DNA of 64,000 bases from Pseudomonadales bacterium (lineage in GTDB: Bacteria; Pseudomonadota; Gammaproteobacteria; Pseudomonadales; DC-out160). Of the stretch, positions 50,943 through 64,000 are shown piece after piece (positions within the stretch are counted from its first letter, which is position 1; each line of letters starts with the position of its first letter). Where the stretch lies: positions 1-64,000 of the forward strand of contig JAHRWA010000001.1 of assembly GCA_019090455.1 (NCBI GenBank), in the 5' to 3' direction. A program made the translations under genes and the position numbers. The notes under the pieces are model-generated. The model was not told the origin of the DNA. It ran no database searches and worked only from the letters and a program-made list of their open reading frames with translations.

Positions 50943-51935
50943 ATGTTCGTACAAGTTGTGGCTGCCGTTATTCGTGGGCAACAAAACACAATCCTAGTTT
51001 CTAAACGCAAAGACGATAGCCATCAAGGGGGGTTATGGGAGTTTCCTGGCGGCAAAGTTGAGGTAGGTGAAAAACCGTTAGAGGCGTTAAAGCGTGAAAT
51101 CGATGAAGAATTGGGAATCACGATACGCGATGCCAGGCCACTGATCAAAGTACATCATCACTATTCTGATAAATCTGTTTGCTTAGATGTGTGGGAAGTG
51201 ACTGCCTACAATGCTCCTTCATTTCAAAAAGCGCCAGATTCATTTACATTGCTGGGTAGGGAAGGACAAATTATTGAGTGGGCTAGTATTTTTAATTTAA
51301 TGGATCGTCCATTTCCCGCAGCCAATTATCCTATTTTAAAAGCGGTGACACTGCCTTCGCATTATGTCATTACGCCTGATTTCAAATCTGCAGATGTTTC
51401 GAATCAAGCGTTAGACGATTTTGTCATGGGGCTGCGGAAAACCATAGAGCTAGGCTGTACACTGATCCAATTGCGAGCGCCAACATTGAATGCTCGTAGC
51501 TATCGCCGAGTGGCCGAGGAAGCTCTCATCCATTGCCGAGAGTTGGATGCAAAATTGATCTTGAATAGCTTTAGCAATACCAACGAATATCCAGAGGCGG
51601 ATGGTCTGCATCTTTCTTCACGGCAATTAATAACACTGTCTTCAGATCAGGCAACATCTCCATCGCCCCAGTTCATACTGGGTGCTTCTTGCCACTCCAT
51701 TGAAGAACTAAAAATAGCCGAGGGACTGGGCTGTGACTACGCTTCATTATCCCCAATACTAGCAACCTCCACGCACCCTGACGTGTGTCCGATTGGCTGG
51801 GCTACTTTCTCACAGTATGTTGAGTCCATTAATATGCCGGTCTATGCGTTAGGTGGATTATGTCTTCAAGACCTTGAAACTTCATGGTTGATGGGAGCGC
51901 AAGGTGTATCAGGGATCAGTCAATTTTGGAATTAA
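50943..51935 (+). CDS. MutT-type Nudix hydrolase fused to a ThiE-like domain
   Basis: 330 aa. Residues 1-135 are a Nudix domain with the box GGKVEVGEKPLEALKREIDE followed by ELGI, as in 8-oxo-dGTP diphosphatase MutT, which cleans the nucleotide pool. Residues about 140-325 form a TIM barrel of the thiamine-phosphate synthase type (CTLIQLRAPTLNARSYRRVA, then LGASCHSIEELKIAEGLGCD and the phosphate loop YALGGLCLQDLE). This fusion is common in gammaproteobacteria; the role of the second domain is not settled. In Pseudomonas argJ lies just upstream; here secA does. Confidence 0.92.
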   Translation: MFVQVVAAVIRGQQNTILVSKRKDDSHQGGLWEFPGGKVEVGEKPLEALKREIDEELGITIRDARPLIKVHHHYSDKSVCLDVWEVTAYNAPSFQKAPDSFTLLGREGQIIEWASIFNLMDRPFPAANYPILKAVTLPSHYVITPDFKSADVSNQALDDFVMGLRKTIELGCTLIQLRAPTLNARSYRRVAEEALIHCRELDAKLILNSFSNTNEYPEADGLHLSSRQLITLSSDQATSPSPQFILGASCHSIEELKIAEGLGCDYASLSPILATSTHPDVCPIGWATFSQYVESINMPVYALGGLCLQDLETSWLMGAQGVSGISQFWN

Positions 51936-52187: not shown

Positions 52188-52952
52188 GTGATTTACATGC
52201 AGCTAAGTACATTATATAGAGCATTTGATTCACTAAAATATACTCCCATTCATCCTCAGTGGGTGGCGAATAGTTGGCACCTTAAAAAAATTGAACTTAT
52301 CAAGAAGCATATAAATCAGGGCCTATGTTTGGATATTGGCTCTGGCAATGACAGGATTGAAGACGATATTCAAAATGATGGCCTTTGTATTGTTAAGCTA
52401 GATTACCCAACTACCTCTCAGCGCTATGGTAACAAGCCTGATATCTACGGTGACGTACAGCAACTTCCCATCGAAACGAACAGTACCGATGCTGTCATAT
52501 TCTTTGAAGTGATAGAGCATGTGCCCAATGATGAGGCGGCACTAAGAGAAATTTCTCGTATACTCAAGGACTCTGGTTTGTTATTTATTTCTGCCCCGTT
52601 TCTGTATCCAACTCACGATCAACCTTTTGACTTTAGGCGCTACACTAGCCATGGGCTCAGGCTTGAACTGGATAAGCAGGGGTTGGAGGTTATTGAAGTT
52701 AAGCCCCACGGAAACTCGATCACTACCGTTTTGCAGTTAATTAATCTTGCTTTACTGGACAGTGTAAAAGCAACGAGTGAAAGGTCGCGACCACTAGCGC
52801 TATTACTCGCTATTCCTTTAGGGTTGTCCTGTCTAATTTCCAATTTAATCTCGTTTGTGTTCTTCGATTTTCAGTCACCCAGTGCCTTGTTGCTTGGCCA
52901 TACTATTGTTGCTAGAAAAGCGGCTTTGAAAAATAATGTTCCGGTGGGTTAG
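52188..52952 (+). CDS. SAM-dependent methyltransferase
   Basis: 254 aa with a GTG start at 52188 (ATG 52197 is an alternative). Class I fold: motif I is CLDIGSGNDRIEDDI near residue 46, the acidic loop D-L/Y after strand 2 and the family 11 core AVIFFEVIEHVPNDEAALRE are present, with ILKDSGLLFISAPF as motif III. A hydrophobic segment near residues 205-230 suggests membrane contact. The substrate is unknown; the position in a glycan-type operon suggests a sugar or lipid-linked intermediate. The GT4 gene starts directly at its stop. Confidence 0.8.
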   Translation: MIYMQLSTLYRAFDSLKYTPIHPQWVANSWHLKKIELIKKHINQGLCLDIGSGNDRIEDDIQNDGLCIVKLDYPTTSQRYGNKPDIYGDVQQLPIETNSTDAVIFFEVIEHVPNDEAALREISRILKDSGLLFISAPFLYPTHDQPFDFRRYTSHGLRLELDKQGLEVIEVKPHGNSITTVLQLINLALLDSVKATSERSRPLALLLAIPLGLSCLISNLISFVFFDFQSPSALLLGHTIVARKAALKNNVPVG

Positions 52953-54131
52953 GTGAAAATACTCTGTATAACCTCTTCTTATCCTGTGACTCCCAGAAGT
53001 AATAGCGGCATATTTGTCAAAAGATTAGTGGATGAAATGGCGGTAGATAATGAAGTCGCCGTTATTACCCCTGCCTACAAAAATATCGTCGGCAAAATTA
53101 ATGAAAATCCAGCTGTATTCGCCACACGCTATGCGCCCAATAAATTCCAAGTACTTTGCCATGACCCAGGTGGAATCCCTGCAATTCTAAAAGCCGATAA
53201 GCGTTTTCTTTTAGCGGTCCCTTTTTTGCTAATTTCTCTGCTCCTAAAAAGCCTCTTTCACGCGAGGCACTACGATATCATTCAAGCTAATTGGGCAATT
53301 TGCGGTGCGATTGCGGGATTCGCAGGTCTAGTGACAGGAACGCCTCTGGTGACAACTCTGAGGGGCGACGATGTCAATGGTGCAAAAAAATCAATCATCA
53401 ATCGACTCTTTCTGTTGGCTGCAATCCACTTGAGTAAAACCATCATTACGGTAAGCGACGAAATTAAGGATCAATTAATTACAGGTTTCAATATTTCGCC
53501 CAACAAAATACTGACGATCCCAAATGGTGTAAACGAAGCATTCCTAAGTCGAGGTCGACAGTTAGTTGAAAATGATGATGGACAGAGGTTCCGGCTTATT
53601 GCTATCGGTAGTTTGATTCCTAGGAAAAATATTTCATTTTTAGTTAATGCATTATCAAAACTGCCGGCACACATTCAAATTACTATTGCAGGTAATGGTG
53701 AGGAAAAAGAAAAGCTCCTTGCTCTGTCCAAAACGCTTCAGATAGAGAATAAGATTCACTTCCTTGGTGCTGTGGACCCTGACGAGATGCCAGCGTTGAT
53801 AGCGGAACATGATCTTTTTGTGTTATGCAGTGTGAGCGAGGGAAGATCAAACGCAGTCTATGAAGCAATGGCCTGTGGAAAATCAATCATCGCAACTGAT
53901 ATACCGGGTACTAAAGAGCAAATTAGTCACGGCCAGACAGGCTTCCTTTTTCCACTAGAAGATTCACCAGAACGTTTTATCGAGTTAGTCAAAATATTAG
54001 AGGAACAAAGAGGGCTCGCGTATCAGTTAGGTAAAAATGCCCACCAATGGATAATCGATAATGGATTCACCTGGGGGGCTACAAAAGAAAACTATCTCAC
54101 CCAATTTCGAAATGTTTTAGGAATGGAATAG
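52953..54131 (+). CDS. Glycosyltransferase, family 4
   Basis: 392 aa with a GTG start immediately after the previous stop. GT-B fold: the N-terminal acceptor domain opens KILCITSSYPVTPRSNSGIF, and the C-terminal donor domain has GSLIPRKNISFLVNALSKLP and the EX7E-type end in CSVSEGRSNAVYEAMACGKS (E-x7-E). It would add a sugar from a nucleotide donor to a lipid-linked or protein-linked acceptor on the cytoplasmic side. Donor and acceptor are not readable. It is 9 bp from the asnB-like gene. Confidence 0.88.
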   Translation: MKILCITSSYPVTPRSNSGIFVKRLVDEMAVDNEVAVITPAYKNIVGKINENPAVFATRYAPNKFQVLCHDPGGIPAILKADKRFLLAVPFLLISLLLKSLFHARHYDIIQANWAICGAIAGFAGLVTGTPLVTTLRGDDVNGAKKSIINRLFLLAAIHLSKTIITVSDEIKDQLITGFNISPNKILTIPNGVNEAFLSRGRQLVENDDGQRFRLIAIGSLIPRKNISFLVNALSKLPAHIQITIAGNGEEKEKLLALSKTLQIENKIHFLGAVDPDEMPALIAEHDLFVLCSVSEGRSNAVYEAMACGKSIIATDIPGTKEQISHGQTGFLFPLEDSPERFIELVKILEEQRGLAYQLGKNAHQWIIDNGFTWGATKENYLTQFRNVLGME

Positions 54132-54140
54132 TTAATTATT

Positions 54141-55985
54141 ATGTGTGGAATTGTGGGTTATGCATCAGAAAAACAAATCAGGGTTAATGCCGCTATCTTC
54201 AAGCAGCTGCAGGCCTGTTTGGATGATATTGCCCATCGTGGACCTGATGATGCGGGGATCAATTTCGAGGACCATGTTTTACTAGGCCATCGACGCCTCT
54301 CTATCCTGGACCTATCCACGAGCGCTAAGCAACCTTTTCTCTCTGCTTGTAAACGATACTCTCTCGCCTTCAATGGCGAGATATACAATTATTTGGAGCT
54401 AAAGTCTGAGCTCGAAGCCCAAGGCGTAATCCACCAAACCACTTCAGATACAGAGGTGTTACTTAATCTTCTAATCAAGAGAGGAGAGAGCTGTCTTACC
54501 CAATTAAATGGTATGTTTGCTTTTGCCTTCTATGATAACGTCACTAAAAAATTGCTTCTTGCTAGAGACAGGTTCGGAAAAAAGCCATTATTCTATAGCC
54601 ATGAAAAGGGTGAGTTAATATTCTGTTCAGAGCTTTACCCCTTAAGGCATTTTGATTCTCTGCAGAATCGAGAGATTAATACCGACGCGTTATCTTCTTA
54701 TTTTTCAACCCAGTTTATTGGCGGCGACGAGACCATCTACCAGGGTATCTATCAACTGCCGGCGGCCAGCTATCTTATATATGAAGATGGACAGATATCG
54801 ACGCAATGCTATTGGAATCTAGAGCACATTGACAATGCATCACTGTCATATGAAGAAGCGAAAGTAGAATTCCAAAAATTATTAAGCGACGCCGTTAATA
54901 TTAGACTTCGTGCAGATGTACCCCTCGGAAGTTTTCTCAGTGGCGGCTTGGATTCCTCTGTTATTACCAAATTAATGCAAGATGCCACGGGTAATGTTAA
55001 TAGCTTTTCTATGGGATTCGACGACCCGTCCTATGATGAATCTCCCGATGCCATTGCAATGGCTAAGGTGCTGGGAACGACTCATATTAATACCATGACA
55101 ACTATGTCGTGCGATAATCTTAAAACGATAGTGAAACATCTAGGCCAGCCCATGGCCGATCCATCAGTGATCCCTTTTTGGGAGCTTTGTAAAACAACTC
55201 GTCAACACGTCACAGTCGCGTTGTCAGGTGATGGTGCGGATGAAATACTCGGCGGCTATAAAAGGTATCTGGCGGCTGATAAGATATCCCCAATTTTGTC
55301 TTACGTACCTAAGTTTTTATTTTTTATGCTCGACCGCTTTATTCCAGAAGGTCACGGTTACTACGGCACATCGGTTTTTAAAAAAATACGTCTGTCGGCG
55401 CGACTCGCCACCGCTATTATGAACGACCGTCGCTTATCACCAACCCTCTTTCTCGACAGCGAAAAAGAGAAGTTACTGCCTGGTCTTTTTCATTCTACCA
55501 AGCCAACGACACAAGATACTTTACCGTATCCTCCGTTAGCCACCCGAATGATGGTGGATGACATCTCAAGTTACATGAAAAACGATATTCTGGTGAAAGT
55601 CGATAGCATGAGCATGGCGAACTCTTTGGAGGTCCGTTCACCTTTCTTGGACTATCGCTTGGTGGAGTTCGTCCTCAGTTTACCGCAAACGTTTAAAATA
55701 AGAGGAAGTGTTCAAAAACGTCTACTTAAAGATATTGCCAAAGATTTAATCCCCAAGTCAGCGGTGGATAAACCTAAACATGGATTTGCTGTGCCTGTTT
55801 CAGTATGGCTAACGACTGCGTTAAAGAGCGATTTTATCGCTTATTTAGACCAAGCACCGACGTTTATAGCTAAAGAGTACGTGCGAGAACTATTTTTAGA
55901 ACATTGTGAGAGAAGTAAAGATCATGGTTTAAAACTGTGGAGTATTTATCTATTCTTAATTTGGTACAAACACTTTAGATTCTGA
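54141..55985 (+). CDS. Asparagine synthase-type amidotransferase
   Basis: 614 aa, full length. Cys2 of MCGIVGYAS is the glutaminase nucleophile, with RLSILDLSTSAKQPF and FNGEIYNYLELKSELEAQG in the same domain. The synthase domain has the PPi-loop SGGLDSS at residues 267-273 and ALSGDGADEILGGYKRYLAA. It moves ammonia from Gln to an adenylated carboxylate. In surface-glycan loci this class amidates uronic acids, which fits the neighbours here, but plain asparagine synthesis cannot be excluded. Lasso-peptide cyclases are less likely, as the Cys2 glutaminase is intact. Confidence 0.88.
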   Translation: MCGIVGYASEKQIRVNAAIFKQLQACLDDIAHRGPDDAGINFEDHVLLGHRRLSILDLSTSAKQPFLSACKRYSLAFNGEIYNYLELKSELEAQGVIHQTTSDTEVLLNLLIKRGESCLTQLNGMFAFAFYDNVTKKLLLARDRFGKKPLFYSHEKGELIFCSELYPLRHFDSLQNREINTDALSSYFSTQFIGGDETIYQGIYQLPAASYLIYEDGQISTQCYWNLEHIDNASLSYEEAKVEFQKLLSDAVNIRLRADVPLGSFLSGGLDSSVITKLMQDATGNVNSFSMGFDDPSYDESPDAIAMAKVLGTTHINTMTTMSCDNLKTIVKHLGQPMADPSVIPFWELCKTTRQHVTVALSGDGADEILGGYKRYLAADKISPILSYVPKFLFFMLDRFIPEGHGYYGTSVFKKIRLSARLATAIMNDRRLSPTLFLDSEKEKLLPGLFHSTKPTTQDTLPYPPLATRMMVDDISSYMKNDILVKVDSMSMANSLEVRSPFLDYRLVEFVLSLPQTFKIRGSVQKRLLKDIAKDLIPKSAVDKPKHGFAVPVSVWLTTALKSDFIAYLDQAPTFIAKEYVRELFLEHCERSKDHGLKLWSIYLFLIWYKHFRF

Positions 55986-55988
55986 CCC

Positions 55989-56744
55989 ATGACAAAATAT
56001 CAAAAAAATCTATCTATCCAGTCACCCATACTACTGGATATTACCCATAAGCAACCTAAAGTCGATAAAGTCCTCTCTATACTTAAGGATAGTGGCGCTC
56101 TGCCTGATACCCAAGAGGGTATTGCTATTGATATCGGCTGTAGTATCGGTTTTTTTGCGCAAGCCCTAACCCCGTATTTTAAGACTGTCTTTGGGCTGGA
56201 TATTGATGTCAATGCGTTAAGTGAAGCACAAAAGCTCCCTGGGAATGATGTGGACAATCTGGCATTTCTCACGGGTGATTCTTTGAACCTGCCCTTTGCC
56301 GACAATTCAATTGATCTGATTCTCTGTAACCATACTTATGAGCATGTACCCGACGCAGAAATATTGTTTTCGGAAATTCAACGAGTGCTTAAACCCGGTG
56401 GCCGGTGTTATTTAGGGGCCGCTTCTCGCCTCATCCTGATGGAACCTCACTACCATCTACTTTTTCTTTCATGGCTACCAAAACTCCTAGCACACAAGTA
56501 TATGCAGATCATGGGTAAGGGAGATGAATACTATGAGATGCTGAGAACCTATTGGGGAATTAGAAAGTTAATTTGTGCGTTTGATGTTACTGATTACACA
56601 TTGAATGTGCTCAAAAACCCTGGCCGGTTTGGAGCAAGGGATATGATTCGCGAAGGCAGCTGGATCGAGAGAACCCCTACTTTTATCTGGAAACTTGTCT
56701 ATCCGTTATTGCCCACATATATATTTATTCTAAAGAAGGTGTAA
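55989..56744 (+). CDS. SAM-dependent methyltransferase, second in locus
   Basis: 251 aa. Motif I is AIDIGCSIGFFAQALTP near residue 48, followed by GLDIDVNALSEAQKLPGNDV and the CNHTYEHVPDAEILFSEIQR core; motif III is VLKPGGRCYLGAA. A C-terminal hydrophobic end (TFIWKLVYPLLPTYIFILKK) suggests membrane association. It starts 3 nt after the asnB-like stop and ends 4 nt before the radical SAM start, so it is in the same transcript. It is not similar in its C-terminal half to the first methyltransferase. Confidence 0.8.
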   Translation: MTKYQKNLSIQSPILLDITHKQPKVDKVLSILKDSGALPDTQEGIAIDIGCSIGFFAQALTPYFKTVFGLDIDVNALSEAQKLPGNDVDNLAFLTGDSLNLPFADNSIDLILCNHTYEHVPDAEILFSEIQRVLKPGGRCYLGAASRLILMEPHYHLLFLSWLPKLLAHKYMQIMGKGDEYYEMLRTYWGIRKLICAFDVTDYTLNVLKNPGRFGARDMIREGSWIERTPTFIWKLVYPLLPTYIFILKKV

Positions 56745-56748
56745 TGCT

Positions 56749-57906
56749 GTGATAAACCTCCAATCTTTGCTTAGAAAATTAATATTTAGATCAGTTAACT
56801 GGATATCAAGAAAATTCTTCGCTAGTCGATTGTCCTATTCTCATATTGAAGCGTTTATATTTTGCAACTCGTTTAAAAAGCTTTTAAATTTTTTATTAGT
56901 CCACTATGAAAAAGCAAGGGGCATCGAGATTCTAAAAAGCTATCCCTACCTGTTCGTTTTTGAAGTGACTAATGTGTGCAATCTCAAGTGTCCATTCTGC
57001 TTAACTGGCAAAGGGATTTCTGGTGATCGTGCTGTACGACACGTTACCTTTGAAGAAGCCAAAAAAATTATTGATGAAGTGGGTGACTATATTTATTTAT
57101 TACAACTTTATACTTGGGGTGAACCACTGCTGAATAAAGATATCTATAAAATTATTGAATATGCAAAATCAAAACGTATATTTGTGATGATTTCAACAAA
57201 TGCAACCGTCATGAACGAGAAGAATAATCAAAAGCTGATAGATAGTGGAATCGACTATGTCATGGTTGCAATTGACGGTGGTAGCCAAGAAACGTATCCA
57301 CAATACCGTGTGGGAGGTAACTACAACCAAGTTTTTGAAAATCTTTCTAATTTACTAGAGATGAAAAAGAAATCAGGAAACACCAGGCCATTCGTTGAAT
57401 GGCAGTTTATCGTCTTTCGGCATAACGAGCATGAAGTGGAAGAGACAGAGAAAATTGCCTACGAGATTGGCATCAACAAGTTCACTCCATTACCTGCTTA
57501 TGTTGAAGATAAAGACTGGTTACCTCAAGGTGACAAATACAAAGTTGAAGCCTTCAATCCAGAACGACTCATGGATTGCGATAGACCATGGACGCACCTC
57601 AACTATCGAGCCGATGGTGGTATTGCTTCTTGCTGTTATGAGTTTTATAAAAAAGATGATTTTGGCGAAGCTATTCACACACCATTTTCAGAAATTTGGA
57701 ATAACGAGTTCTTTAGAGAATCTAGAAAGCTTATTGTCCAGAAGCGAAGAGGAAAAACACTCGATAAATCGGATCTTATTTGTTACGACTGTTTAGAATC
57801 AGGCTTGCGACCCTCCTTTATCGAATCACCGACAGAAACACAGACTGCACAGAAAATCATTGCTACCGTTGAGATCGTCGAAGAAAAACCGCAACCAAAA
57901 ATATAG
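56749..57906 (+). CDS. Radical SAM/SPASM protein
   Basis: 385 aa with a GTG start at 56749. The 4Fe-4S cluster motif is C77-N-L-K-C81-P-F-C84, followed by the TWGEPLLNKDIYKIIEYAKS region. Auxiliary-cluster cysteines of a SPASM domain occur in ERLMDCDRPWTHLNYR, GIASCCYEF and ICYDCLESG. Radical SAM enzymes of this type in polysaccharide loci are poorly understood; many modify sugars or peptides. No small precursor peptide was found nearby. The gene overlaps the opposing membrane protein gene by 44 bp at its 3' end. Confidence 0.85.
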   Translation: MINLQSLLRKLIFRSVNWISRKFFASRLSYSHIEAFIFCNSFKKLLNFLLVHYEKARGIEILKSYPYLFVFEVTNVCNLKCPFCLTGKGISGDRAVRHVTFEEAKKIIDEVGDYIYLLQLYTWGEPLLNKDIYKIIEYAKSKRIFVMISTNATVMNEKNNQKLIDSGIDYVMVAIDGGSQETYPQYRVGGNYNQVFENLSNLLEMKKKSGNTRPFVEWQFIVFRHNEHEVEETEKIAYEIGINKFTPLPAYVEDKDWLPQGDKYKVEAFNPERLMDCDRPWTHLNYRADGGIASCCYEFYKKDDFGEAIHTPFSEIWNNEFFRESRKLIVQKRRGKTLDKSDLICYDCLESGLRPSFIESPTETQTAQKIIATVEIVEEKPQPKI

Positions 57907-58771
57907 CGAGGGATGCGAGCTCGCCTAAAATCAACCATAAGCGACTAGCGACAGAGACAGAAATTGCAACCATCGGACTTGTCAGCATTGACAAGAATCC
58001 ATAGAGCGTTACTTCTCTAATTCCTAGCCCGCCTGGAAAAACAATGAGTACAAATCCAATACAAAAGCTGATAGAGAAAGCACTGCCCGCCAAATAGAGT
58101 TCACTAAATGATTTGAACTGGATATTGATGCTCGCTAAAAAAAGAAGAAATACTGCTGAAAAACATAACCAAAAAAAGCAATAGAAAAAATATATTGCCC
58201 AGCGCCACTGGCATCGAGAGAATTCGGAATTATTGATATGCCGTCCAACCAGCGGTAATTTACTCAGCAAACTAAAACCCGGTCCAGACAAGCTAAACAG
58301 TATAGTCGCGATACAAAGAAGGCCCAGAAAGGTAGCAATCGTCGAATTTATTTCAAGCACTGTCAATAAAATGGGCAGTCCTATAGTGAAAGAGCCCAAT
58401 GCCAGCATCACACTTTCGGCCACGATACTGATAATACAACTGCGCTTGGTTACCCCATATTCTTCCGATAATACGACACGACTCGCATAGGCCCAAACTA
58501 CGCCGGGGATATAGCGTGTTAAAGATGAACGTAACCAGATTGCAATGGCATCGAAAGCCGATATTTTTTCACCTGATACTTTAAGAATTAGCCACCATCC
58601 ATAAGCATCCATTAAGAAGATCAAAACAAGTGCAAGCAAAGAAAACAGCAATAGTCGAATATTGATCTGCCAATCCGTTGCAACAGCCTCAGGCCAATAA
58701 TCAAAAATAAGAGCCCCGAGAAAAGCAAATGCAATAACAGGAAAGACGATTTTGAATAGTTTAAGCATCAT
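57863..58771 (-). CDS. Flippase-like membrane protein (LPG synthase TM domain)
   Basis: 302 aa, about eight predicted membrane helices, no soluble domain. It resembles the UPF0104/lysylphosphatidylglycerol-synthase transmembrane family: WLRSSLTRYIPGVVWAYASR, then VFPGGLGIREVTLYGFLSML near the end. In MprF this domain flips lipid, and stand-alone copies occur in glycolipid and polysaccharide loci. It may move a lipid-linked product across the inner membrane, but this is inference. The 3' end overlaps the radical SAM gene tail to tail. It starts 3 nt after the acyltransferase stop. Confidence 0.75.
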   Translation of the reverse strand: MMLKLFKIVFPVIAFAFLGALIFDYWPEAVATDWQINIRLLLFSLLALVLIFLMDAYGWWLILKVSGEKISAFDAIAIWLRSSLTRYIPGVVWAYASRVVLSEEYGVTKRSCIISIVAESVMLALGSFTIGLPILLTVLEINSTIATFLGLLCIATILFSLSGPGFSLLSKLPLVGRHINNSEFSRCQWRWAIYFFYCFFWLCFSAVFLLFLASINIQFKSFSELYLAGSAFSISFCIGFVLIVFPGGLGIREVTLYGFLSMLTSPMVAISVSVASRLWLILGELASLAIFLVAVFLRRSQR

Positions 58772-58774
58772 GGC

Positions 58775-59530
58775 CTAAACGCCACGATTAAGCTGGCCTA
58801 TTACTTTTCCGGGAATTCCCCCGATGATAGAGCCCGAATCCACATTTTTATTCACCACTGCATTTGCGGCTATCACCGAGCCCTCACCAATCGTGACGCC
58901 GTCTAGAATTTTACAGCCTGCACCTAGCCAAACATTGTTACCAATCGAAATGCCGATAGCAGAATGGCCTTGCTCGTTCATGGGAAGATCTGGTTGGTCA
59001 AAATTATGATTTGAAGCAACGATAAAGCACTGGCCAGCAATCATTACGTTGTCACCTATCTCTACACCGCCATGCCCATAAATAATCGAGGACTGGCCAA
59101 TAGACGAGGATTTTCCTATTTTGATGTAACCACAAGGTGGTCCTGCATTGAGCATCGCAAAACTTCTAATAAATGTATTTTCACCCATCACAATTGATGC
59201 ACGCTCATCACTATTGGCTATCAACTGACAATAATCATCAACAATGACACCCGCTCCCAATCGTATCTGCTTAGGGCAACGCAGCGTCACGTTAACACCC
59301 ACCACTGATGTGCGATCAAAGCCATGATAGATTAGGGGGTAGATTTTTTTACGTAGTAAGTAACCAATGCCACCTTTGAGCCCACTAATAAAGGTGGTAG
59401 CAACTTCCTGGATACACCACTCAAAGTGCGAACTGTATTGGCCTGCAACGACTCGTACATATTTTTGTGTCATTGATTCAGTTTTGTAGGTTTTAGTCAG
59501 GTTGAACTTTTTTCGTTCCGGCATAGTCAT
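58775..59530 (-). CDS. Hexapeptide-repeat acyltransferase (left-handed beta helix)
   Basis: About 251 aa if read from ATG 59530; the frame opens to a TTG at 59590, which would add a hydrophobic segment. The start is not settled, and ATG 59473 is also possible. Hexapeptide repeats run from about residue 90: RLGAGVIVDDYCQLI, IVMGENTFIRSFAML, IGKSSSIGQSSIIYG, IGDNVMIAGQCFIVASNHNF with the catalytic-type His, then IGNNVWLGAGCKILDG and IGEGSVIAANAVVNK. It should transfer acetyl or another acyl group to a sugar. It forms a two-gene unit with the flippase-like gene. Confidence 0.82.
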   Translation of the reverse strand: MTMPERKKFNLTKTYKTESMTQKYVRVVAGQYSSHFEWCIQEVATTFISGLKGGIGYLLRKKIYPLIYHGFDRTSVVGVNVTLRCPKQIRLGAGVIVDDYCQLIANSDERASIVMGENTFIRSFAMLNAGPPCGYIKIGKSSSIGQSSIIYGHGGVEIGDNVMIAGQCFIVASNHNFDQPDLPMNEQGHSAIGISIGNNVWLGAGCKILDGVTIGEGSVIAANAVVNKNVDSGSIIGGIPGKVIGQLNRGV

Positions 59531-59607
59531 TGTTGCCAAGGTTAGAGCTGTGAGTAACATGAGTGCTAATATTATAGGCAATAAAAACAAGTCTTGTTTT
59601 CAGTACT

Positions 59608-59640
59608 CGTGCTGACATCGTGCTGACATCGTGCTGCAAT
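59608..59640. repeat. Tandem 11-bp repeat in spacer
   Basis: CGTGCTGACAT at 59608-59618 and 59619-59629, then CGTGCTGCAAT at 59630-59640, at the right edge of the accessory locus. Confidence 0.85.
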
Positions 59641-59663
59641 ATGCGCGCTCTTGATTTCAGCTA

Positions 59664-59855
59664 TTAGCCCTCAGAGTCCATTCCCTCAGGGTCTAAGCCA
59701 GGCTGGCCGGCAATACTATGGTTTTCGCTTGCCCATTCGCCGAGATCAATCAGTTTGCATCGATAAGTGCAAAAGGGCTTGAATGGAAATTTGTCGTTCC
59801 ATTCAAGCGGTTTGCTGCAGGTGGGGCATTTGAGCGAGATTGAGTTTTGTTGCAT
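59664..59855 (-). CDS. yacG: YacG, zinc-finger inhibitor of DNA gyrase
   Basis: 63 aa. The zinc site is C10-P-T-C13 and C29-T-Y-R-C33, and the family segment is PFCTYRCKLIDLGEWASEN. YacG binds GyrB and lowers gyrase activity. An acidic C-terminus follows. It is encoded next to coaE and the pil genes, the usual place. Confidence 0.95.
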   Translation of the reverse strand: MQQNSISLKCPTCSKPLEWNDKFPFKPFCTYRCKLIDLGEWASENHSIAGQPGLDPEGMDSEG

Positions 59856-59961: not shown

Positions 59962-60561
59962 TTAAGATTTAGCAGTGGCCATTTGCAGATAAGTTTTATG
60001 TAATTTATCGACTTCACTTAGGAGATGTGTCAGATCTTTGTCATTGAGAATGACATCATCCGTTTTGGAGAGTCTATCTTCTCGGCTCATTTGAGCGGCG
60101 ATAATCGCCTTAACACCGGCTTCGTCGGTATCGTCTCTGGTGATCGTTCGGCTGATTTGAAGTTCTACCGGTACATCTACGACTAGGGTTCTGTCTACCA
60201 TTTCAAATTGGGTGGTTTCGAACAAAAGGGGAGAAGCTAAAACGGTATAAGTGGTAGTGCTGGCTTGTAACTGATTCCAAATTTCTTGCGAGATAGACGG
60301 ATGCAATACGCTCTCTAGCCATTTTCGTTCGTCGGTATTTTCAAACACTTTGTTGCGCAGCGCACGTCGGTCTAGCTCATTATTTTTGTCGATGACTTCA
60401 GCGCCAAAATGTTCCTTGATTTTTGCCAGTGCAGGTGTACCGGGCTCGACCACTTGTCGTGAAACGAGATCTGCATCGACGATGGTGATGCCTTTTTCTG
60501 CGAATGAGTCTGATACAGCAGTCTTGCCGCTACCAATACCACCAGTTAATCCTATTATCAT
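59962..60561 (-). CDS. coaE: Dephospho-CoA kinase
   Basis: 199 aa. The P-loop is MIIGLTGGIGSGKTAVSDSF (K13), with DADLVSRQVVEPGTPALAKI and an LLFETTQFEMVDRTLVVDV segment. It performs the last step of coenzyme A synthesis: phosphorylation of the ribose 3' hydroxyl. It lies between pilD and yacG, a conserved order in the Pseudomonas group. Confidence 0.97.
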   Translation of the reverse strand: MIIGLTGGIGSGKTAVSDSFAEKGITIVDADLVSRQVVEPGTPALAKIKEHFGAEVIDKNNELDRRALRNKVFENTDERKWLESVLHPSISQEIWNQLQASTTTYTVLASPLLFETTQFEMVDRTLVVDVPVELQISRTITRDDTDEAGVKAIIAAQMSREDRLSKTDDVILNDKDLTHLLSEVDKLHKTYLQMATAKS

Positions 60562-60629
60562 TATTTGTGCTCTCTCGGGGTGTTCTATCGAATGAAACTA
60601 AAATTCGGATCTAGTCAGTAGGTCCAGAT

Positions 60630-61535
60630 CTAAAGCGCGAACCTAAAATAGGTGCTCGATATTATGTCACCCCACAGCATCGCAATCCAGCCTGCCGCCG
60701 CAAGATAAGGGCCAAAAGGAATAGGGATGTTCTTATCACGCCCCAAAACGAGAATCAGTGTAATGCCCACTAAAGCCCCGACCATGGACGAACCCACGAT
60801 AATAATGGGCAGCGTTTTCCAGCCGAACCAAGCACCAAAAGCGGCCAGCAGTTTAAAGTCGCCGTAGCCCATACCATCCTTACCGGTGGCCAGTTTAAAT
60901 ATCCAAAAAACCGACCAAAGACTAAGGTAGCCGGCGGCGGCCCCTATTACAGCCTGATCCAAGGGCACAAAATGCCCCTGAATATTAACGAGTAGGCCCA
61001 GCCACATTAGCGGTAGGGTGATGGTATCAGGCAGTAATTTGTGATCGAAATCGATCATTGTGAGGGTGATGAGGCTCCAGGTCAGAAGCAGTGCCAGCGC
61101 TGTTTGCCAGCCAAACCCAAAATGCTGAGCCACCGTGACGGACAGTATGGCGGTGACGGCTTCGAGAATGGGGTATCGCGGTGATATGGGGCACTTGCAC
61201 TGGCTGCATTTTCCGAATAAAAAAAGATAGCTTATGACAGGGATGTTTTCCCATGGCTTGATTTTATGGTCGCATTTCGGGCAAGTCGAAGCGGGAACAA
61301 GAAGGTTAAAGGCTTCAGTTTCACCCTTATATTCCGGATTTTGTGTGTCGCTATTGGCTTCCTCTTTGCCAAATTCAGCTAACAGCTCTTGGGCTTGCTC
61401 TTGCCAATCTCGCTCCATCATTACGGGCAAGCGATATATGACAACGTTAAGAAAGCTGCCAATGAGTAGGCCTAAAATGCCAACACAGATATAGAAGGCA
61501 AGAGGGTTGTTTTGTAACGTAACAATAAAGTCCAT
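60630..61535 (-). CDS. pilD: Prepilin peptidase / N-methyltransferase
   Basis: 301 aa, polytopic. The Cys motif of the methylase loop starts C85-P-K-C88 and closes with KCSQCKCPISPRYP; the peptidase Asp residues lie in LTMIDFDHKLLPD and GYGDFKLLAAFGAWFGW. It cleaves the leader of type IV prepilins and methylates the new N-terminus. It is downstream of pilC in the same direction. All catalytic motifs are intact. Confidence 0.97.
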   Translation of the reverse strand: MDFIVTLQNNPLAFYICVGILGLLIGSFLNVVIYRLPVMMERDWQEQAQELLAEFGKEEANSDTQNPEYKGETEAFNLLVPASTCPKCDHKIKPWENIPVISYLFLFGKCSQCKCPISPRYPILEAVTAILSVTVAQHFGFGWQTALALLLTWSLITLTMIDFDHKLLPDTITLPLMWLGLLVNIQGHFVPLDQAVIGAAAGYLSLWSVFWIFKLATGKDGMGYGDFKLLAAFGAWFGWKTLPIIIVGSSMVGALVGITLILVLGRDKNIPIPFGPYLAAAGWIAMLWGDIISSTYFRFAL

Positions 61536-61660
61536 TAAATTATCTTAATTGCTTAGCAAAATAGGGAAACGACTCAGTATTTATGTCAGCACCTGTACCC
61601 AAATTAAGTATCAGTACCTGCATTAAATACCCGTGTCTGAGCCGCAATTGGATGGGGGTT

Positions 61661-62905
61661 TTACATTGCAGAACCAAGCTGGAATATGGGCATGTACATA
61701 GCGAAGATCAAACCGCCGACGAGCACCCCAAGGACTGACATGATGAGGGGTTCCATTAATGAGGTTAACCCGTCTACTGCATTATCGACTTCATCCTCAT
61801 AATAGCTTGCGACTTTAGCAAGCATTTCATCTAACGCACCTGACTCCTCTCCAATCGCTACCATCTGTATTGCCATTGAGGGGAAAACACCGGTTGCTCG
61901 CATGGAGAAATTGAGTTGCTGACCCGCTGAAACATCTTCCTTTATGCGGTTAACCGCATTTTTGTAAACCACGTTGCCTGTCGCGCCGGCAACGGACTCC
62001 AATGCTTCGACCAAAGGGACACCCGCTGCAAAAGTGGTGGCTAGCGTTCTCGCGTATCGAGCAATAGTGGCTTTAAACAGAATGTCTCCCACCACCGGCA
62101 TTTTTAAAGCGAGCCGATCTAGTGAATCGGAAAATGGCTGGGAGCGTTTTTTTGCTTCAGAGAAAGCGTATCCAAACAAAATAATACCAACGAGTATTAT
62201 CAACCAGTATTCTTGCATCCATTCAGATAGGTCAACCACCATTTGCGTAAAGGCGGGCAATTCAGCGCCAAACCCTTCAAATAGATCTTGGAATGTGGGT
62301 ACAACTTTAATGAGAAGTATCGCTGTGACCACAAGGGCAACAATAATAACCGTAATAGGGTATTTTAATGCTTTCTTAATCTTGGCTTTCAAGGCCTCCG
62401 TTTTTTCTTTATAGGTAGCGACTCGGTCTAGCATGGTTTCTAGCGCGCCCGATTGTTCTCCAGAGCCGACGAGGCTGCAAAACAGATCATCAAATTGAGC
62501 AGGATTCTTTCGTAACGCAGACTCTAAACTGTTTCCACCTTCAACCTCTGTTTTGATCTTAAGGATGAGCTCCTTCATCGTCTTATTGTCTAGGCCTTCT
62601 GCCACAATCCCGAACGCTTGAACTAGCGGTACGCCCGCTTTCATCATGGTTGCCAGTTGACGAGTGAAAATAGCGATGTCTACGGGTTTGATTTTTTGCT
62701 TCGATTCGAAAAGAGCTTTAGGCTTTTTCTTTACTTTCTTGGGGGTGATGCCTTGCTTTCTCAGCTCGGCTTTTACCAGGGCGATACTTGCTCCCGGTGT
62801 TTCCCCTTTTGTTTTATTGCCGCGACGATCCTGGCCTTCCCAAGTGAAGGTGCTGAGGCTAGGTGCTTGTTCTACTTTGCCACGTTTTTTTGCTTGTACA
62901 GCCAT
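61661..62905 (-). CDS. pilC: Type IV pilus inner membrane platform protein PilC
   Basis: 414 aa. Two T2SF domains: the first near residues 80-205 (FTRQLATMMKAGVPLVQAFG), the second near 280-405 (YARTLATTFAAGVPLVEALE), each followed by membrane helices. The N-terminus is basic with TFTWEGQDRRGNKTKGETPG, the GspF/PilC start. It transmits motor movement from PilB to pilin insertion. It is encoded 2 bp after pilB. Confidence 0.97.
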   Translation of the reverse strand: MAVQAKKRGKVEQAPSLSTFTWEGQDRRGNKTKGETPGASIALVKAELRKQGITPKKVKKKPKALFESKQKIKPVDIAIFTRQLATMMKAGVPLVQAFGIVAEGLDNKTMKELILKIKTEVEGGNSLESALRKNPAQFDDLFCSLVGSGEQSGALETMLDRVATYKEKTEALKAKIKKALKYPITVIIVALVVTAILLIKVVPTFQDLFEGFGAELPAFTQMVVDLSEWMQEYWLIILVGIILFGYAFSEAKKRSQPFSDSLDRLALKMPVVGDILFKATIARYARTLATTFAAGVPLVEALESVAGATGNVVYKNAVNRIKEDVSAGQQLNFSMRATGVFPSMAIQMVAIGEESGALDEMLAKVASYYEDEVDNAVDGLTSLMEPLIMSVLGVLVGGLIFAMYMPIFQLGSAM

Positions 62906-62907
62906 AT

Positions 62908-64000
62908 TTAATGTCCTGTCGTCACGCGATTGACTTCTTCTAAGCTAGTGACACCGTCTTTCACCTTTTTAAGACCGGAAGCCCTAAGGTCAGGAAAGCC
63001 CTCTTTTTTTGCTGCATCACCTATTTCGATGGAATTACCGTTTTCCATGATAATGCGAGCGATGGCGTCTGTTATCTTAACGACTTCATATATTCCAACG
63101 CGGCCCTTGTAACCTTCCACGCATTTGTCGCACCCCACCGGAGCATAAACGGTGAAAGTGCCAATCTCATCTTCGGTATAGCCCGTTTCTAAGAGTGATT
63201 CTTTGGGGACATCCAATACCTTTTTACAGCTTTTACATAACCGTCTTGCCAGACGCTGTGCAATGATCAGCGATACGGATGTCGCTATGTTAAAGGAGGG
63301 CACTCCCATATTACGTAATCGAGTGAGTGTCTCTGGTGCACTGTTGGTGTGTAGAGTCGACAGCACCAAATGCCCTGTTTGAGCGGCTTTGATAGCGATT
63401 TCAGCGGTTTCAAGATCTCGTATTTCCCCTACCATGACTATATCAGGATCTTGTCGTAAAAAAGAGCGTAAAGCTAAGCCAAAATCCAGACCTACTTTTT
63501 TGTTGACGTTGACCTGATTGATTCCTTCGAGGTTGATTTCCACGGGATCTTCAGCTGTTGAGATGTTTCTTTCTGCCGTATTGAGAATGTTTAGGCCCGT
63601 ATAAAGAGAAACCGTTTTACCGCTACCGGTGGGGCCTGTCACTAAAATCATACCTTGAGGGAGATCGAGGGCATGAAGAAATAGCTGCTTCTGGTCATCT
63701 TCATAACCCAAGGCATCAATGCCCAGCTTAGCACTATCAGGATCTAATATTCGCAGTACTACTTTTTCACCGAACAAAGTAGGTAGCGTATTGACTCGAA
63801 AATCGATGGCTCGGTTTTTAGAAATTTTGAGTTTAATACGACCATCCTGAGGGATACGACGTTCGGAAATATCCATCTGCGACATAACTTTGAGCCTGGC
63901 CGCGAGGCGAGGCGCCAGATTTTGAGGTGGTCGTGTGACTTCTCGCAAAATTCCATCCGCTCTGAAACGAATTCGATAAGTTTTTTCATAGGGCTCAAAA
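62908..64000 (-). CDS. pilB: Type IV pilus extension ATPase PilB, 5' end beyond the window
   Basis: The frame runs from the window edge to a stop at 62908, about 364 codons of the C-terminal half. It begins in the [10 protein letters not shown] region before the first ATP motif. P-loop [15 protein letters not shown], Asp box [20 protein letters not shown], His box [21 protein letters not shown] four-Cys zinc site follows ([13 protein letters not shown]). It drives pilus extension with PilC. The gene is cut by the right edge. Confidence 0.96.

Follow-up and report, generated by a model that had tools for sequence, protein, structure and literature searches.

What is a run of seven genes for glycan-modifying enzymes doing between the fused mutT-thiE gene and yacG of a Pseudomonadales bacterium (assembly GCA_019090455.1), and which molecule do their products decorate? 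The genes lie in the window, as we call the 64,000-nucleotide stretch of DNA analysed here, and specify two methyltransferases (MT1 and MT2), a family 4 glycosyltransferase (GT4), an AsnB-type glutamine amidotransferase, a radical S-adenosylmethionine (SAM) protein (rSAM), a flippase-like LPG_synthase_TM protein (LPG_TM) and a hexapeptide acyltransferase (Table 1). A sequence-only reading had taken them for an inserted accessory locus that may make an amidated, methylated and acylated lipid-linked glycan. The gene content does fit glycan modification, but the locus is probably not free-standing, since homologues of its genes are found between pilA and nadC in other genomes. Comparison of these loci makes it probable that the seven genes form the tailoring part of a system that glycosylates type IV pilin, displaced from its usual site; the chemistry of the individual enzymes is much less certain. 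The link to the pilus was invisible from the window, partly because the window, which covers 64 kb from the start of a 109-kb contig (JAHRWA010000001.1, C64 below), ends inside pilB.

In G097, a genome from another family of the order, homologues of all seven genes lie between nadC and pilA. MT1, GT4, AsnB and LPG_TM follow one another on one strand; the other carries the hexapeptide gene and then a run, with gaps of about -8 to 25 bp, composed of rSAM, MT2, a family 2 glycosyltransferase gene (GT2), a gene for a 652-amino-acid protein with multiple transmembrane segments and tetratricopeptide repeats (multi-TM/TPR) and pilA. The mutT-thiE/yacG junction of G097 is empty. Identity to the window proteins reaches 60-70% for rSAM, MT2 and the hexapeptide enzyme and 35-37% for MT1, GT4, AsnB and LPG_TM. 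Partial versions occur elsewhere. G034 has five of the seven (pilA-TPR-GT2-MT2, then LPG_TM-AsnB-GT4-MT1), without rSAM or the hexapeptide gene; in G292, GT2, GT4, MT1 and AsnB are consecutive. The G754 genome carries pilA-TPR-GT2-MT1-GT4-(713 amino acids)-AsnB on one contig and, on a second (locus L058), GT4-AsnB-rSAM facing LPG_TM-hexapeptide. The hexapeptide enzyme is 62% identical to its G097 homologue and 48% to that of L058, where the neighbouring gene is also the same. Two of these loci carry a gene remnant or what looks like one. Between AsnB and rSAM of L058, a 63-amino-acid open reading frame (ORF; L058:3163-3354) is a C-terminal remnant of MT2 (50% identity over 52 residues). An 83-amino-acid ORF within the G097 cassette (L088:10688-10939) also has the look of a gene remnant, because it matches part of a 397-amino-acid methyltransferase from the G034 pil locus.

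In the genome of the window, pilA lies just beyond the window end, 5.4 kb from the cassette across the pilBCD-coaE-yacG block. It is followed, in order, by a TfpX/Z-family gene (NF041437, 128.6 bits, below the cut-off of 200), two tandem multi-TM/TPR genes, an Lnb_N gene (PF13387), a DUF3015 gene, a GT2 gene and nadC. The GT2 resembles polyprenyl-phosphate-sugar synthases, its best family model being AglJ (TIGR04182, 115 versus a cut-off of 325). The pilin-accessory site of Pseudomonas is bounded by nadC. Accessory genes are placed 3' of the pilin gene in that genus (PMC11841053), and the pilA-nadC interval described here recalls that site. Since homologues of the cassette genes occur at pilA-nadC with TPR and GT2 genes elsewhere, and the same TPR and GT2 genes stand at pilA in this genome, pilin is the likely target of the cassette. 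In the congener G001, the TPR genes (contig C5, locus L149) are followed by genes for a DUF354 protein, a distant AsnB (28%), a 401-amino-acid protein without a Pfam match and an LPG_synthase_TM protein (PF03706). Judged by these genes, G001 appears to keep at the usual pil place the functions that the window species holds at mutT/yacG. The module is a different one; therefore, the pilin locus varies between two species of one genus.

Because the loci above had been fetched on account of pilA, 24 whole genomes, picked for having a TPR gene, were searched for cassette homologues irrespective of position. Besides that of the window, strong MT1 homologues (E < 1e-29) were found in G754, G034, G292, G097 and G017, all five at pilA or GT2/TPR loci. 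The chance of this co-location is, by a rough estimate, about 3e-11 if such loci take up 40 kb of 5 Mb per genome, a figure that ignores both the TPR-based choice and the kinship of the genomes. Similarly, LPG_TM homologues were found in the L058 cassette, G097 and G034, and weakly in G353 at a GT2/TPR locus; GT4 homologues with E < 1e-60 were confined to the L058 cassette and the G034, G097 and G292 loci, and a weaker match (G754, contig C136) is likewise at pilA. Across 332 genomes, MT2 matches of at least 58% identity come from G097 and G034 alone, in each case next to GT2 at the pilA locus. Matches of 37-41% lie mostly in other contexts, so that the MT2-like family as a whole is not specific to pili. 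In a maximum-likelihood tree, the window AsnB groups with the copies from L058, G097, G034 and G292 (support 97/99, with long end branches). This clade leaves out the paralogues from the window's own genome, which are on other contigs. Two of that genome's AsnB genes (L073 and L074, C9:142-152 kb) share a 10-kb stretch with hexapeptide- and glycosyltransferase-like genes, in what is probably a main surface polysaccharide locus.

How did the cassette come to lie at mutT-thiE/yacG? In G001, the sole congener in the comparison, the 3' end of mutT-thiE overlaps yacG with no cassette between them. The distance from mutT-thiE to coaE is 102-291 bp in 18 of 20 distinct junctions of the order, G001 among them, and 8.0 kb in the window. 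Of the remaining two junctions, that of G018 contains one pilin accessory gene, of the TfpX/Z family, and the other is a 461-bp gap with a 102-amino-acid ORF. The site being empty in 18 of 20 relatives, including the only congener, the cassette is an insertion, as had been proposed, and the empty sites are as expected of one inserted horizontally. The accompanying claim that the insert splits two housekeeping blocks needs amending: the right-hand block is the pilus block yacG-coaE-pilD-pilC-pilB. The G018 gene (L037:2439-3197) occupies the same mutT-thiE/coaE gap that carries the cassette in the window. Base composition gave a mild signal only, with GC content at 41.6% versus 44.5% and codon usage host-like in five of seven genes (the outliers being rSAM, z +2.1, with the lowest GC of 37%, and LPG_TM, z -2.4); a clearly foreign composition was thus rejected. 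The borders showed no shared or inverted 10-mers and no tRNA, and rSAM had no match at E <= 1e-30 among 72,556 plasmid records. Between the hexapeptide gene and yacG (59605-59645) there is a tandem repeat of about 11 bp, ATCGTGCTGAC, in 2-3 copies, which may be a scar or a product of chance. The idea that the cassette is a piece of an adjoining O-antigen cluster was discarded, as no such cluster lies next to it.

The seven ORFs were found where first described, the plus-strand genes being separated by 0, 9, 3 and 4 bp, and Pfam backs the name of each product. MT1 starts with GTG (an alternative ATG is at 52197), and the convergent rSAM and LPG_TM ORFs share 44 bp at their 3' ends. AsnB is intact, having both Cys2 and the SGGLDS loop. 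NCBIfam models matched by the cassette proteins all scored below cut-off, except for the broad asparagine synthase model TIGR01536 (glutamine-hydrolysing), which AsnB matches with 438.2 bits (cut-off 267.1) and which does not tell the substrate. The same 438.2 bits fall below the cut-off of 816.9 for TIGR03108 (eps_aminotran_1, the XrtA/PEP-CTERM amidotransferase). High-probability Foldseek matches of LPG_TM are all to MprF, yet with E values of just 0.045-0.22; the best has a template-modelling score of 0.55-0.59 on the query, a weak resemblance drawn from a two-sequence model with a predicted local distance difference test score (pLDDT) of 70. This part of the window showed no precursor peptide and no Wzx, Wzy or ABC exporter, the last three being absent from the directly adjoining genes as well, and Pfam identified no polymerase, ligase or exporter gene among the cassette ORFs. 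This agrees with the earlier view that the locus is not of the O-antigen, capsule or ribosomally synthesized and post-translationally modified peptide (RiPP) type. The plus-strand genes are too tightly packed for a RiPP precursor gene, and no conserved short ORF was noted in the homologous loci.

Table 1. Cassette genes, borders of the insertion and adjoining pil genes (window numbering; C64, same contig)
Feature	Position	Strand	Basis or remark
MT1, class I SAM methyltransferase	52188-52952	+	Methyltransf_11 E 2.5e-13 (Pfam)
GT4 glycosyltransferase	52953-54131	+	Glycos_transf_1 E 2.7e-34 (Pfam)
AsnB-type glutamine amidotransferase	54141-55985	+	Asn_synthase E 8.3e-84, GATase_6/7 (Pfam)
MT2, class I SAM methyltransferase	55989-56744	+	Methyltransf_11 E 8.5e-24 (Pfam)
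rSAM, radical SAM protein	56749-57906	+	Radical_SAM + SPASM (Pfam)
LPG_TM, flippase-like LPG_synthase_TM protein	57863-58771	-	PF03706 37.4 bits, cut-off 33.4
Left-handed beta-helix (hexapeptide) O-acyltransferase	58775-59590	-	Hexapep E 2e-17 (Pfam)
mutT-thiE, one fused gene	50943-51935	+	Left border; NUDIX_4 + TMP-TENI (Pfam)
yacG	59664-59855	-	Right border; 63-amino-acid ORF, 77% to congener yacG
coaE, pilD, pilC, pilB	59962-63948	-	coaE by Pfam; pilD/pilC/pilB order kept in relatives
pilB, running past the window end	C64:62908-64620	-	
pilA	C64:65031-65588		Divergent from pilB
Two tandem multi-TM/TPR proteins (641 and 659 amino acids)	C64:66719-70620 (L096:4719-8620)		

The multi-TM/TPR proteins beside pilA are candidates for the transferase that attaches the glycan to pilin. 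Their family, for which neither Pfam nor NCBIfam has a model, is represented at E <= 1e-15 in 61 of the 390 genomes searched in the order. In 43 regions with a multi-TM/TPR gene, the distance to pilA is at most 3 kb in 34 cases and that to GT2 in 30; several of the other regions are cut by contig ends. The two proteins of the window's genome have about 9-10 transmembrane (hydrophobic) segments. Weak TPR matches mark the C-terminus of the first tandem protein, the same part in which TPR proteins from the PDB are matched by the family profile. The family alignment reveals an invariant Asp-Asp directly after the first transmembrane segment and a conserved FEHRNY block. The many transmembrane segments, the C-terminal TPR and the pairing with GT2 bring to mind the TMTC O-mannosyltransferases, which are GT-C enzymes (PMC7801869). 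Assignment to GT-C by sequence was tried and rejected: a domain-only profile gave chance-level PDB matches and no Pfam family. Because no glycosyltransferase family was matched in Pfam, NCBIfam or PDB, a transferase role is something we infer. It is tentatively proposed that these proteins represent a new class of pilin glycosyltransferase, GT-C/TMTC-like and using a polyprenyl-monophosphate donor supplied by GT2, and that the cassette glycan is acted on by rSAM. No description of a radical SAM step on pilin glycans was found in the searchable open-access literature.

The rSAM protein has the core motif CX3CX2C (Cys77/81/84) and a single auxiliary set of four cysteines (C277-X12-G-X4-C295 and C345-X2-C348), as in Twitch-type enzymes; all seven cysteines are invariant in seven homologues. 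A search of 390 whole genomes of the order gave one close relative outside the species, in G097 (69-70% identity); identity to the L058 copy is 65%. The remaining matches in the order and class (25-35%) occur in other contexts and were set aside as having no bearing on function. Profile comparison with solved structures places rSAM nearest to BtrN (E 9e-24, the best stretch being the auxiliary domain), with cytosylglucuronate decarboxylase also matched. The closest fold neighbours of the predicted structure (pLDDT 76) are DesII (Z 22.3), SkfB (21.2), BlsE (20.7), SuiB (20.5) and BtrN (19.1). The structure comparison suggested by the sequence-only reading thus places sugar enzymes among the closest relatives, but peptide maturases score equally, and fold alone does not separate the two. 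Gene context favours a sugar as the substrate. BtrN, BlsE and DesII share with rSAM the fold and the auxiliary-cluster domain; rSAM differs from them in its N-terminal extension of about 60 residues and in sequence, identity in the fold alignments being 14-22%.

A pathway can be proposed for the cassette, which adjoins the pilBCD-coaE-yacG block at its mutT end rather than occupying the pilA-nadC interval. The GT2 beside nadC would load a sugar onto undecaprenyl phosphate and the cassette GT4 would extend the lipid-linked glycan. AsnB might convert the carboxyl group of a uronic acid to an amide, in the manner of WbpS; MT1 and MT2 would add methyl groups and the hexapeptide enzyme acyl groups. 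A sugar might also be oxidised or deoxygenated by rSAM, in the way that BtrN, DesII and BlsE act on their own substrates. LPG_TM may help the lipid-linked glycan to flip, and its transfer to pilin, outside the membrane, would fall to one or other of the multi-TM/TPR proteins.

Several observations weigh against a role in pilin glycosylation. The cassette itself lies outside the pilA-nadC interval, is not operonic with pilA and contains no sugar-nucleotide genes. The rSAM fold is as close to the RiPP maturases SkfB and SuiB, and the candidate transferase belongs to no recognised glycosyltransferase family. Enzymes of the same kinds also serve O-antigens and exopolysaccharides, the L058 cassette adjoins suhB/trmJ away from pil genes, and other AsnB genes of this genome sit in clusters with glycosyltransferase-like genes. 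These last three points, along with the WbbJ/WcaF-like best models of the hexapeptide enzyme, would suit a free-standing locus whose products modify a surface polysaccharide or glycolipid (lipopolysaccharide (LPS) core, O-antigen or exported lipid-linked oligosaccharide) and which lies near pil genes by accident. We consider this unlikely, given that MT1, GT4, AsnB, MT2 or rSAM adjoin GT2 and multi-TM/TPR genes at pilA in several genomes, that strong MT1 homologues occur nowhere but at such loci in the 24 genomes, and that the cassette has no polymerase, ligase or exporter.

A less probable alternative divides the locus in two, with GT4, AsnB, MT1 and the flippase-like protein serving the pilin glycan while rSAM, MT2 and the hexapeptide enzyme travel along as a separate unit modifying a small molecule or peptide. 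The uneven divergence from G097 follows this division, rSAM has the lowest GC content, and G034 has MT2 without rSAM or the hexapeptide gene. Yet in G097 it is rSAM and MT2 that stand in a tight run with pilA, GT2 and the TPR gene, away from GT4 and AsnB; moreover, no precursor-peptide gene was seen and sugar-acting enzymes are among the closest solved relatives of rSAM. Finally, a locus for a RiPP or other peptide natural product is highly improbable: AsnB matches the lasso cyclase model NF033535 with 238 bits and the rSAM fold resembles SkfB and SuiB, but that score is far under the model's cut-off (525), neither a precursor peptide nor a peptidase or leader-binding domain was seen, a glycosyltransferase is encoded in the same operon and the linkage to pilA is recurrent.

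The system proposed here, a pilin glycosylation system with a displaced cassette, has known counterparts. As in the P. aeruginosa cassettes 3' of pilA (TfpO in group I, TfpW in group IV; TfpX/Y/Z), variable genes are found at pilA, and genes for a membrane glycosyltransferase (a candidate one here) and a TfpX/Z-family protein stand near the pilin gene (PMC11841053). TfpW is named a GT-C family arabinosyltransferase in a title cited by PMC9239064. Unlike in P. aeruginosa, the pilBCD-coaE-yacG block separates the glycan-making genes from pilA; the putative transferase combines multiple TM segments with C-terminal TPR and is recognised by no family library; and the cassette includes rSAM and AsnB, a pair of methyltransferases, an acyltransferase and a flippase-like protein. 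The WaaL-like O-oligosaccharyltransferase classes PglL, PglS, TfpO and TfpM have pilin or pilin-like acceptors and genes that often adjoin the pilin gene (PMC12645811). The probable acceptor and the position of the candidate transferase gene agree with this pattern; in contrast to these enzymes, the multi-TM/TPR proteins showed no Wzy_C, PglL_A or O-antigen-ligase domain in Pfam or NCBIfam. Some AsnB-type enzymes are known to form uronamides on glycans attached to protein or LPS, and the WbpS type (P. gingivalis PGN_1234, P. aeruginosa WbpS, E. coli WbqG and H. pullorum WbpS) acts, as the window AsnB would, in a glycan pathway, the glycan being protein-linked in two cases (PMC7468200, PMC6025236). 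With respect to this type, the window AsnB remains below the eps_aminotran_1 cut-off. The Agl pathway of Haloferax makes a lipid-monophosphate-linked glycan for surface proteins, the same idea as proposed here. Initiation there is of the AglJ type, on dolichyl phosphate, and AglJ is the best family model for GT2; the differences are that GT2 scores below the AglJ cut-off and that no AglB-type oligosaccharyltransferase was found in the regions read. Pilin glycosylation islands are thus already known; the composition of this cassette and the unclassified pilA-linked family are without description in the searchable open-access literature.

With these results, an orphan "accessory glycan" locus can now be tested as a component of a system for pilus decoration, and a widespread, unclassified family of membrane proteins at pilin genes becomes a candidate transferase class. 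The product of rSAM could be readable from the mass of one abundant protein, PilA. Since pilin glycans of Pseudomonas help to evade pilus-binding phages (PMC11841053), phage pressure may be what drives variable pilin-glycan cassettes of this kind.

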